DNA of 64,000 nucleotides from the NCBI RefSeq assembly GCF_024494685.1, contig NZ_JANHDM010000005.1:62001-126000 (forward strand), written 5' to 3'. The translations under genes were made by a program, and so were the position numbers. A model generated the notes under the pieces. The model was not told the origin of the DNA, made no database searches, and worked only from the letters and a program-made list of their open reading frames with translations. The stretch is from Halorubrum rubrum. Its GTDB lineage: Archaea > Halobacteriota > Halobacteria > Halobacteriales > Haloferacaceae. This document shows positions 36,456 to 40,209 of this stretch, in pieces. Position 1 is the first letter of the stretch, and every line of letters starts with the position of its first letter.

Positions 36456-37145
36456 CTACGACGCGTCGTCTCTCTTCACTTCGTCGTCGTTCTTCTCTTC
36501 GTCGTCGGCTCCGGTACCGTCGTCGTCCTCGTCGACGACCTCCTCGATCCGCTTCTCGACCGTCTCGTCGACCGTTTCTTCCACGGTCTTCTCGACCGTC
36601 TCCTCTACGGTTCCTTCCACCGTTTCCTCCACCGTCTCGCCGACCTGCTCTTCGACGGTCTTCTCCATGGTCTCTCCCACCGTCTTCTCGACCGTCTCGC
36701 CCACCGTCTCCTCGACGGTCTTCTCGACGTCCTCAGAGACCTTCTCGACCGTCTCCTCGACGTCCTTCGTCACCTCGCCGACCTTCTCCTCGACGGTCTT
36801 CTCGACGTCCTCCGAGACCTTGCCGACGCTCTCGTCGACCGCCTCCTCGACCTCGTCGGCGCGGGGGCGACGGTCGACGCGATCGTTCACCTCCTCGAGC
36901 CGGTCGATGACCGCGTCGACCTCGGTCCGGAGCGTCTCCTCGACGTTCTCCGTGACTTCCTCGGTCATCCACTCGGGATCGAACCGGGCCATCTTCCAGA
37001 AGACGTGGATGGCGTACGAGACGAGCACGCCGAGCCCGAAGGCGATGCCGACCCGGTTGCCGACGACCGAAAAGAGGACGACGGCGACGAATATCATGAG
37101 GCCGTACGCCAGATCGACGACGAAATCGACCCGGTTGGGGTTCAT
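36456..37145 (-). CDS. membrane-anchored protein with a long tetrapeptide-repeat helix
   Basis: A 229-residue protein. Two hydrophobic helices lie in residues ~10-50 (YGLMIFVAVVLFSVV and GIAFGLGVLVSYAIHVFW). After residue ~60 almost the whole chain is acidic helix. From ~95 to ~200 it is built from units of the form TV[E/G][E/K] repeated about fifteen times, plus two KVSEDVEKTVEE blocks. Val at every fourth residue suggests a long single helix or coiled coil. The encoding DNA has 12-base repeats, which may change in number. Function unknown; a spacer, scaffold or cell-envelope tether is possible. Confidence 0.75.
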   Translation of the reverse strand: MNPNRVDFVVDLAYGLMIFVAVVLFSVVGNRVGIAFGLGVLVSYAIHVFWKMARFDPEWMTEEVTENVEETLRTEVDAVIDRLEEVNDRVDRRPRADEVEEAVDESVGKVSEDVEKTVEEKVGEVTKDVEETVEKVSEDVEKTVEETVGETVEKTVGETMEKTVEEQVGETVEETVEGTVEETVEKTVEETVDETVEKRIEEVVDEDDDGTGADDEEKNDDEVKRDDAS

Positions 37146-37286: not shown

Positions 37287-38312
37287 TCAGCGCGGGGATC
37301 CCTGGGCCGACGACCTCTCGGACTCGAGAACTCGTTTCGTCGACTCGTCGACCTCGACCAGGTGACAGAGGGGGTTTCCGGGGTAGACGACGGGGTTCTC
37401 GAGGACGCCGATAAGCAGACCGGTGAAGGGCGCTTTCACGCCGACGGCGTCCTCCTTGAACGGGTTGGTGATCGTCGCGATCCGCTCGCCCTCGTGGACC
37501 AGCGAGCCGCTCTCGGAGTGGGTATCGACGATCCCGCCGGAGTCGGCGCGGAGCCACGTCTTCTCGCCGGAACCCGCGACGATCGTTCGCCAGCCGGGCC
37601 AGCGGACCGCCTCCGTCTCGAGCATGCCGTACTCCGCGAACGCCGACCGGACGCCGGCGAGCGCGTCGTCGATGAGCCGTCGCTGGAACCGGTGTGCCTC
37701 GCCCATCTCGACGGTGATCGTCGGGATGCCGTCCGCGGTCGCCTCCCCGCGGAGGGTCCCGCTCGGACCGTCGCTGTCGATTATCACGCTCGAGCCGAAC
37801 GCCATCGCGAGGCGGTACACCCCCTCGTCGGTCATGTCGCCGCGGGCGTGGAGCATGTTCGTTCGCCCCCGCGTCGAGGTGTGAAAGTCGATCCCGAAGT
37901 CGCACGGCTCGATGAAGTTCGCGTAGATCCGGTGGGCCATCCGCTTCGAGCTCGTCGACCCCGGTTTCCCCGGAAACGACCGGTTCAGGTCTCGGTCGTA
38001 GACCGGGAGGTACCGCTGTTGGGCGAGGAAGCCGGGCACGTTGAGCACGGGCAGACAGACGAGGGTGCCGCGGAGCGCCGAGAGGTCCCACTCGTGGGCG
38101 ACCTCCCGAACCACCTCGATCCCGTTGAGCTCGTCGCCGTGCGAGGCCGCGGAGAGGAACGCGGTCGGGCCGTCGCGCTCGCCGTTGACGATCGTCACCG
38201 GGATGCGGACGGGGTCGCCGAGGTACGTCTCGCTGATGCCGTAACGGATGTTCTGCGTCTCGCCGGGCGGGACCGCGCCGCCGTTGTACGTGAACGCCCG
38301 GTCGTTTCCCAT
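37287..38312 (-). CDS. AstE/aspartoacylase-family zinc hydrolase
   Basis: A 341-residue M14-like deacylase. Zinc ligands His58 and Glu61 are in SHGDELNG, with the third His144 in DFHTSTRGR, plus DRDLNRSFPG with the substrate Arg. This is the pattern of succinylglutamate desuccinylase and aspartoacylase. The C-terminal beta domain is present (WLRADSGGIVDTHSESGSLV). Its target is probably an N-acyl or gamma-glutamyl-type amide bond. It is transcribed away from the RimK-ligase/retropepsin gene, with 120 bases between their starts; a TATA-like TATATACG is in this spacer. I infer that the two are functionally linked. Confidence 0.85.
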   Translation of the reverse strand: MGNDRAFTYNGGAVPPGETQNIRYGISETYLGDPVRIPVTIVNGERDGPTAFLSAASHGDELNGIEVVREVAHEWDLSALRGTLVCLPVLNVPGFLAQQRYLPVYDRDLNRSFPGKPGSTSSKRMAHRIYANFIEPCDFGIDFHTSTRGRTNMLHARGDMTDEGVYRLAMAFGSSVIIDSDGPSGTLRGEATADGIPTITVEMGEAHRFQRRLIDDALAGVRSAFAEYGMLETEAVRWPGWRTIVAGSGEKTWLRADSGGIVDTHSESGSLVHEGERIATITNPFKEDAVGVKAPFTGLLIGVLENPVVYPGNPLCHLVEVDESTKRVLESERSSAQGSPR

Positions 38313-38432
38313 GTCTCACGCGAACGGGGGGGCGGGTATATACGTGACGCACGGGGTACGGACGTGTCAGACTGAGCGTAATCGTGTGAAACGATCGGAC
38401 CAGTTTTCATCCCGGCCGTCACACTCACCAGC

Positions 38433-39788
38433 ATGACCACGGACCCGGTACGGGTGGGCGTGCTGTCGTTACACAACAGCAAGGAGACGAAGGCGATCTG
38501 TAACGCGGTCGAGGGGCTCGGGCACGAGCCGGTGTGGCTCCGCGAGGAGAACGCGGCGATAAGCGTCGATGACGGCGACGTGTCGGTGGAACCGGCCGTC
38601 GACGTCATCGCGAACCGGCTGCTGTTGTCGAACACCGACCAGCCCGCGGAGCTGCTCGGGCTCGCGGCGACCTTCGAGCGGATCCGTCCGATGTTGAACG
38701 AGCCGAACGCGGTACTGGCGTCGATCCACAAGTTCGCGACCGCGGCGACGCTCGCCGACTGGAACATCCGCGTGCCCGACGCCCTGTTAGCGCTCTCGAA
38801 CGACCGACTCAACGAGGACCGCGAGCGCTTCGGCGACGTGGGCGTGTACAAGACGGCGATCGGCACCCACGGCGGCGGCACGTGGAAGGTCGACCTCACG
38901 GAGCGGGTGAACCCGAAGGTGGGCAACCGCCAGGCGTTCCTCCAGCAGCTCATCGACCGCGACGACGAGAAACACCGGGACCTGCGGGTGTACGTCGTCG
39001 GCGACGAGATCATCGGATCGATGTACCGCTACGCGCCCGAGGGCGACTGGCGGACCAACGTCGCGCTCGGTGGCGCGGTCGAGGACGCCACCGACGACAT
39101 GCCCGAGGAGGCCGCCGACACCGCCCTGTACGCCGCGGAGGTGATGGGGCTCGACTACGCCGGCGTCGACCTCGTCGAGGGGTACGACGGCTGGTACGTC
39201 CTCGAGGTCAACCCGACCGCGGGGTTCAAGGGCCTCTTCGAGGCGACCGGCACGAGCCCCGCACCCCACATCGCCAAGCTGGCGATCGAGACCGTCAACG
39301 GCGAGGTCGACGACGACGACGTGGAACGGATCGCGGGAACCCTCGACGACTCCCGCCCCTCGTGTGCGCCGAAGCCGAAGTCACGCCCGTCCGAACAGCC
39401 CGTCATCGGCTACATCGAGGAGGTCGTCGCCACCGGCACCTCCGGGTCGGTACAGGCGTTCGCGAAGTCGGACACGGGTGCGACCCGGACCAGCATCGAC
39501 ACCTCGCTCGCCGCGGAGATCGGCGCGGGGCCGATAAAGAGCATGACGCGGGTGAAATCCGGCAGCGTGAAGGGGGGGAAGGCCCGCCCAGTCGTCGACC
39601 TCGTCATCGGGATCGGCGGCAACCAACACACCGTCACCGCGAGCGTCGAGGACCGCGGGCACATGGACTACCCGCTGCTTCTCGGCCGGGACATCCTCTC
39701 CGACTACCGCGTCAACGTCCGGAAGCGCGCGGACACCGACGAGACGGAACGCGGCGAGTCCGGCGAGATCCTCGAAGAGGAGGAGTAA
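38433..39788 (+). CDS. RimK-type glutamate ligase fused to a retropepsin-like (ATP-dependent zinc protease) domain
   Basis: A 451-residue two-domain protein. Residues ~5-300 form an ATP-grasp ligase of the RimK family: GVYKTAIGTHGGGTWKV (ATP loop) and VLEVNPTAGFKGLFEATG (Mg-binding Glu and Asn). RimK enzymes add glutamate to proteins, coenzyme F420 or methanopterin. After a linker (PSCAPKPKSRP) residues ~320-430 match the RimB/DUF785 'ATP-dependent zinc protease', a retropepsin-like fold with Asp347 in DTGATRT. The second domain would process what the first makes. The gene is divergent from an AstE-type hydrolase and seven bases before a Rieske protein. Confidence 0.85.
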   Translation: MTTDPVRVGVLSLHNSKETKAICNAVEGLGHEPVWLREENAAISVDDGDVSVEPAVDVIANRLLLSNTDQPAELLGLAATFERIRPMLNEPNAVLASIHKFATAATLADWNIRVPDALLALSNDRLNEDRERFGDVGVYKTAIGTHGGGTWKVDLTERVNPKVGNRQAFLQQLIDRDDEKHRDLRVYVVGDEIIGSMYRYAPEGDWRTNVALGGAVEDATDDMPEEAADTALYAAEVMGLDYAGVDLVEGYDGWYVLEVNPTAGFKGLFEATGTSPAPHIAKLAIETVNGEVDDDDVERIAGTLDDSRPSCAPKPKSRPSEQPVIGYIEEVVATGTSGSVQAFAKSDTGATRTSIDTSLAAEIGAGPIKSMTRVKSGSVKGGKARPVVDLVIGIGGNQHTVTASVEDRGHMDYPLLLGRDILSDYRVNVRKRADTDETERGESGEILEEEE

Positions 39789-39795
39789 GGGGCCG

Positions 39796-40209
39796 ATGTC
39801 CGACGACACCCGGATCGTCGACCTCGAGGCCGTCCCCGAGAACGGGTCGTACCGGTTCACCGCCGAGGACCCGTTCGCGACCGAGACGGAACTGATCCTC
39901 GTGCGCTGTGCGGAGGAGCCGGGGGTGCGTGCGTGGACCAACACCTGTCCGCACGAGAGCCAGCGGCTCGACGCCGGCGACGGCGCGGCGGTGCGGGAGA
40001 ACGCGATCGTCTGTCCGCGACACGGGTCGCTCTTCGACGCCTGCTCCGGCGAGTGCGAGAACGGTCCGGCGGCCGGGACGACGCTCCCAGGAGTCGACCT
40101 CGCGGTCGAAGACGGCGCAGTCCACCTAGCCGACGACCGCTACGCGTTCCTCCGCGAGGGCGGGATCGACGACGACGAACCGGGGTCGACGTCGCACGTC
40201 TCGTTTTGA
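39796..40209 (+). CDS. Rieske [2Fe-2S] ferredoxin-type protein
   Basis: A 137-residue Rieske-fold protein. The cluster ligands are Cys51 and His53 in CPHESQRLD, and Cys73 and His76 in CPRHGSLFD, spaced as in ferredoxin-type and dioxygenase Rieske domains. No membrane anchor or signal is present, so it is cytosolic. ATG 39796 lies seven bases after the stop of the ligase/protease gene, which suggests the same transcript. A role as electron donor to an oxygenase is possible, but none is nearby. Confidence 0.85.
   Translation: MSDDTRIVDLEAVPENGSYRFTAEDPFATETELILVRCAEEPGVRAWTNTCPHESQRLDAGDGAAVRENAIVCPRHGSLFDACSGECENGPAAGTTLPGVDLAVEDGAVHLADDRYAFLREGGIDDDEPGSTSHVSF

Follow-up and report, generated by a model that had tools for sequence, protein, structure and literature searches.

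A haloarchaeal RimK-RimB fusion protein with a conserved Glu-Glu end and an AstE-type partner: a candidate poly-glutamate system

Introduction

Poly-glutamate tagging is known from the bacterial ribosomal protein S6 and from tubulin; our search of the literature brought up no archaeal example. In Pseudomonas fluorescens, a RimK-type ligase and a RimB-type retropepsin carrying a DTG motif exert opposing activities on S6 (RpsF) (PMC7343187, PMC11957791). Cleavage by RimB requires about five to six glutamates or more in a chain and spares aspartate (PMC11957791); on RpsF, four to five glutamates remain (PMC7343187). A RimB-RimK hybrid was published for bacteria in 2025 by Little et al. (PMC11957791); it occurs in Desulfotalea psychrophila, Flavobacteriales and Rhodobacterales, and its protease activity was shown (PMC11957791). 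The RloA/RloC system of Pseudomonas aeruginosa includes a secreted RimB-like retropepsin that cuts Glu-rich peptides and contacts poly-glutamate through K46, R114 and R137, the latter two being spaced by 23 residues; a separate ATP-grasp protein and an inactive transglutaminase accompany it (PMC12239564). The residue that follows DTG is regarded as a retroviral-type feature (PMC12239564). Among haloarchaea, ArgX of Natrinema gari, a ligase of the RimK family, joins glutamate to the terminal glutamate of the carrier protein ArgW, which needs this terminal residue, in arginine synthesis (PMC10433800).

Here we analyse a locus from Halorubrum rubrum at which a RimK-type ligase and a RimB-type protease share one chain and an AstE-type hydrolase is encoded divergently. 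As compared to the system of P. fluorescens, the ligase and the protease are of the same types. In that system, however, the genes are separate, the substrate is S6, which haloarchaea lack, AstE is not part of the described complex, and the bacterial ligases used for comparison have no Glu-Glu end. The RimBK hybrid resembles the haloarchaeal fusion in uniting ligase and protease, but its order is RimB then RimK rather than RimK then RimB, and the published survey covered bacteria only; two examples, from Thioclava and Aureibacter, likewise have RimB first and do not end in Glu-Glu. RloA/RloC shares with the fusion the retropepsin type and the same basic contact residues, while at the haloarchaeal loci no inactive transglutaminase partner was observed. 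ArgX/ArgW offers the parallel of a RimK-family ligase that acts on a terminal glutamate in a haloarchaeon, but it employs a separate carrier, a GSWGR motif and no retropepsin. Thus, the activities, the gene set and the ligase-protease hybrid are known in bacteria. As far as the literature shows, the near-universal haloarchaeal fusion in reverse domain order appears to be new, as do its strict co-inheritance with AstE and its conserved Glu-Glu end. The suggestion made in the preliminary description of this DNA, that a fused version may be a distinct system, is therefore upheld only in part: a hybrid of this kind has been known since 2025, whereas the opposite domain order and the archaeal occurrence set the present one apart.

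Domain architecture of the fusion protein

Throughout, the window denotes the whole stretch of 64,000 nucleotides that was analysed. The open reading frames for the AstE-type protein, the fusion and a Rieske protein all lie where they had been reported (Table 1).

Table 1. Features of the locus (positions are those of the window).
Feature	Position	Strand	Evidence or remarks
AstE/AspA-type zinc hydrolase, partner gene, 341 aa	37287..38312	-	PF24827 1.6e-42; H58/E61/H144; catalytic-type E202
Intergenic region, 120 bases, between the divergent AstE-type and fusion genes	38313..38432	.	
RimK-RimB fusion gene, 451 aa	38433..39788	+	PF08443 and PF05618
RimK-type ATP-grasp glutamate ligase part, aa 1-300	38433..39332	+	D246, E258, N260 invariant
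RimB/RloA-type retropepsin domain, aa 321-432	39393..39728	+	PF05618; 2pma, 9g58, 9g59
DTGA catalytic motif, D347-A350	39471..39482	+	invariant in 42 and 47 relatives
Acidic C-terminal tail of the fusion	39729..39785	+	length and sequence differ among species
Terminal Glu-Glu, aa 450-451	39780..39785	+	within EEEE here; proposed glutamate acceptor
Rieske [2Fe-2S] protein, 137 aa	39796..40209	+	PF00355 5.8e-11; judged outside the system

Both domains of the fusion exceed their Pfam cut-offs, with 82.4 bits (4e-23; cut-off 21) for the RimK-like ATP-grasp family PF08443 and 31.7 bits (1.7e-7; cut-off 27) for PF05618, and the motif VLEVNPTAGF is present, which bears out the earlier claim that a RimK ligase and a retropepsin reside in a single chain of 451 residues and demonstrates the identity of the two domains. 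Since 122 of the 146 genomes sampled from the order show the same architecture, the fusion is no assembly accident. A PF05618 match is also reported for the laboratory strain Haloferax volcanii. In existing annotation, haloarchaeal fusion proteins are assigned to the RimK or RimK/LysX family, and our literature search for a haloarchaeal RimK of the fusion type brought up no paper. The nearest NCBIfam models are the RimK subfamily for the ligase and the RloA retropepsins for the protease, all scoring below their curated cut-offs; for the ligase, TIGR00768 falls slightly short (135.1 bits, cut-off 143.4). The metal-binding residues of the ligase do not vary among 42 fusions, and an AF2 model of residues 1-310 (pLDDT about 64-98) has a fold matching the structures of RimK, ArgX and LysX.

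In the retropepsin domain, the DTGA and LLGRD motifs are conserved among relatives, and K345, R385 and R408 are invariant. K345 stands two residues before the catalytic D347, and R385 and R408 are 23 residues apart; by motif and spacing we equate the three with K46, R114 and R137 of RloA. Thus, the DTGA domain possesses the residues required of a RimB/RloA-type retropepsin, each of them invariant. The domain received pLDDT values below 50 in two AF2 models built from thin alignments, and the match to solved RloA is one of sequence only.

The AstE-type partner is inherited together with the fusion

AstE-type enzymes are usually amino-acid deacylases. The protein encoded in the window scores 145.7 bits with PF24827 (cut-off 25), and all three residues of the zinc site predicted for it earlier are present and common to the copies found in bacterial rimK operons. 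E202 sits in VEMGEAHRF, and the corresponding motif E-x-GEA-x-RF is shared by the haloarchaeal and rimK-operon proteins, a DoeB example being without it. The models for succinylglutamate desuccinylase (TIGR03242; 15.7 bits, cut-off 305.65) and DoeB (87.4 bits, cut-off 402.7) are far from reached. Among the bacterial matches listed, the Salinivibrio protein is the best (36% identity, 202 bits), with the others showing full-length identities of about 22-30%; an AstE tree was left unused because long branches dominate it. On plasmids of Salinivibrio and Acaryochloris, the order as annotated is rimB (zinc protease), rimK and AstE. These operons comprise the same three activities as the haloarchaeal set, but each activity has its own gene and all three genes point the same way, where haloarchaea have a fusion and an AstE gene in divergent orientation. 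In Vibrio, rimB is a gene of its own and comes after rimK.

Matches to the fusion were obtained in 123 of the 146 genomes of the order, one of which is a distant match to RimK alone, leaving 122 genomes with the fusion; AstE of this type likewise occurs in 122. Considering the 122 good genomes, that is those at least 90% complete, 108 have both genes, 14 have neither and none is discordant (genomes not listed were inferred from the tallies of both lists). The four discordant genomes are all 72-86% complete. Absences of both genes are spread over at least eight families, which suggests that the pair was lost jointly on several occasions. In the phylum sampled beyond the order, matches to the query cover almost solely the RimK part, so that within this sample the fusion looks specific to haloarchaea. 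The AstE and fusion genes are divergent and adjacent at 57 of 77 haloarchaeal loci and divergent at a greater distance at a further 13. Conserved and co-inherited in haloarchaea and forming an operon in some bacteria, ligase, protease and hydrolase are a linked set, as had been anticipated; ligase and hydrolase belong together.

The fusion protein ends in a conserved pair of glutamates

Counting one fusion per genome, Glu-Glu forms the last two residues in 61 of 78 proteins, and 71 have Glu as the final residue. By comparison, among the 772 further genes predicted at these loci, 9 (1.2%) have the Glu-Glu ending; as this background was taken from genes near the fusion, other conserved Glu-Glu proteins may exist outside these loci. 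In a set of named genomes, which is rich in Halorubrum and overlaps the first, the count is 73 of 80. Aspartate is never found at either position. The tails extend 1-25 residues past the last conserved strand (median 17.5), and shuffling residues within them yielded on average 6.9 and at most 20 Glu-Glu ends in 20,000 trials. Between species, pairwise identity is 0.11-0.29 in the preceding part of the tail and rises to 0.83 and 0.70 at the final two positions. A tree of 81 tips, computed with the tail left out, implies 11 changes of the trait. The exceptions include eight fusions ending in Leu-Glu and two from reduced genomes that have no tail. One fusion terminates in GDSEE, exactly as does E. 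coli S6, the acceptor of RimK. The S6 family itself is absent from haloarchaea (0 of 59 genomes), and therefore the substrate of the haloarchaeal ligase must be something else. No neighbouring gene family at the fusion loci has conserved Glu-Glu ends.

Most intact divergent paralogs (about 47-61% identity) keep Glu-Glu on unrelated short tails, while one paralog clade ends in GS or GA; the view, drawn from three loci, that paralogs are without Glu-Glu is thereby overturned. DTG is lost and the ligase motifs are intact in the paralogs L230, L234, L235, L236 and L111, which are probably ligase-only copies. The Glu-Glu end is retained in L235 and in L230, for which L234 is a second name, and is missing from the degenerate L236 and L111. 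The paralogs L229, L230 and L231, located on haloarchaeal megaplasmids, adjoin universal stress protein genes; L231, from Salinigranum marinum, is split over several reading frames and lies between transposase genes.

A proposed mechanism and its alternatives

A glutamate ligase with a fast-changing tail and a fixed Glu-Glu tip is most simply read as carrying its acceptor at this tip, and the reading is supported by the fact that acceptors of the RimK family, namely S6 and ArgW, end in Glu. We therefore tentatively propose, at somewhat less than an even chance, that the locus encodes the RimB-RimK-AstE poly-glutamate system in its haloarchaeal version, with the fusion's own tail as acceptor. 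By analogy with the bacterial relatives, the N-terminal RimK part would add glutamates at the expense of ATP, and the C-terminal RimB part, acting as a retropepsin dimer, would cut glutamate chains of about five or longer. The acceptor would be the flexible C-terminal tail, so that the enzyme may write and erase on itself, or the tail may prime an oligo-glutamate. The divergently encoded hydrolase would most likely remove leftover glutamates or release the product; its action on glutamate chains is a guess. The self-acting cycle as a whole, that is RimK extending its own Glu-Glu primer, RimB trimming the chain and AstE resetting or releasing it, is a possibility that we favour with some reserve, the acceptor step and the exact role of AstE being what we infer. 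If true, a single chain would write, erase and serve as substrate in archaea without ribosomal protein S6. About 89% of good haloarchaeal genomes encode the fusion, invariably along with AstE, which suggests that the modification is widespread, and the conserved end provides a named residue pair that can be tested in a tractable archaeon.

The main rival, which we consider rather unlikely, starts from the fact that bacterial RimK modifies another protein, so that an unrecognised target is possible in haloarchaea, too. Writer and eraser would then act on a separate haloarchaeal protein, and the Glu-Glu tail would serve as a regulatory pseudo-substrate in the protease or ligase site. Every characterised RimK/RimB system indeed targets a separate protein, and as RimB binds glutamate chains but needs about five residues for cleavage, a short Glu end could be bound uncut. 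However, the known substrate and any neighbouring family with conserved Glu-Glu ends are both missing, and the two DTG-less paralogs that retain the pair fit poorly with a pseudo-substrate of the protease.

A metabolic ligase of the LysX/ArgX or MptN kind is less probable still; in this case, a small molecule would be built up on the terminal Glu of the fusion itself, serving as an amino-group carrier, or be linked to a cofactor, and AstE would release it. The reaction of ArgX with ArgW is a haloarchaeal precedent, the models of MptN and LysX rank directly behind that of RimK, and an sdhC-like gene follows AstE on the same strand at many loci. Nevertheless, the curated cut-offs of MptN (116.7 bits versus 350), LysX_arch (102 bits versus 275.6) and CofF are all missed widely, the GSWGR motif for carrier recognition in LysX/ArgX is replaced by GTHGG, which is closer to GTQGxG of RimK, and a RimB-type protease with poly-glutamate contacts would be left unexplained.

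We see very little room for the idea that the Glu-Glu ends merely reflect that halophile proteins are acidic in general, or that the next gene has its ribosome-binding site there. Haloarchaeal proteins are acidic, and GAGGAG, which resembles a Shine-Dalgarno sequence, precedes the Rieske start in the window. However, this is contradicted by the low background at the same loci and by the absence of aspartate from the two positions. Moreover, the codon of the second-last Glu alternates between GAA and GAG, and the end persists in 24 of 30 cases with a convergent downstream neighbour, that is irrespective of the direction of the next gene.

Finally, a redox-linked modification system that includes the Rieske protein, put forward in the preliminary description and suggested by an ATG 7 bases past the stop codon of the fusion, can practically be dismissed, as gene order contradicts membership of the Rieske protein: it adjoins the fusion in only four of the 146 genomes, all of one genus, and at 6 of 76 named Halorubrum-like loci, and its relatives elsewhere are located at other, unrelated loci.

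Gene neighbourhood

At 51 of the 70 loci with AstE, an sdhC-like gene begins at most 255 bases past AstE on the same strand, followed in most such loci by sdhD, sdhB and sdhA, the sdh names having been given by eye. This arrangement is lost in the window itself. An HhH-GPD DNA glycosylase gene is common downstream of the fusion. In Natrialbaceae-like genomes (five loci; names given by eye from sequence), genes for a polysaccharide flippase-like membrane protein and an acetyltransferase-like protein lie between AstE and the fusion. Behind AstE, the window encodes a 229-residue protein (36456-37145) that is kept by close relatives only and in which a long repetitive Glu/Val region of coiled-coil-like character accompanies a probable membrane segment.
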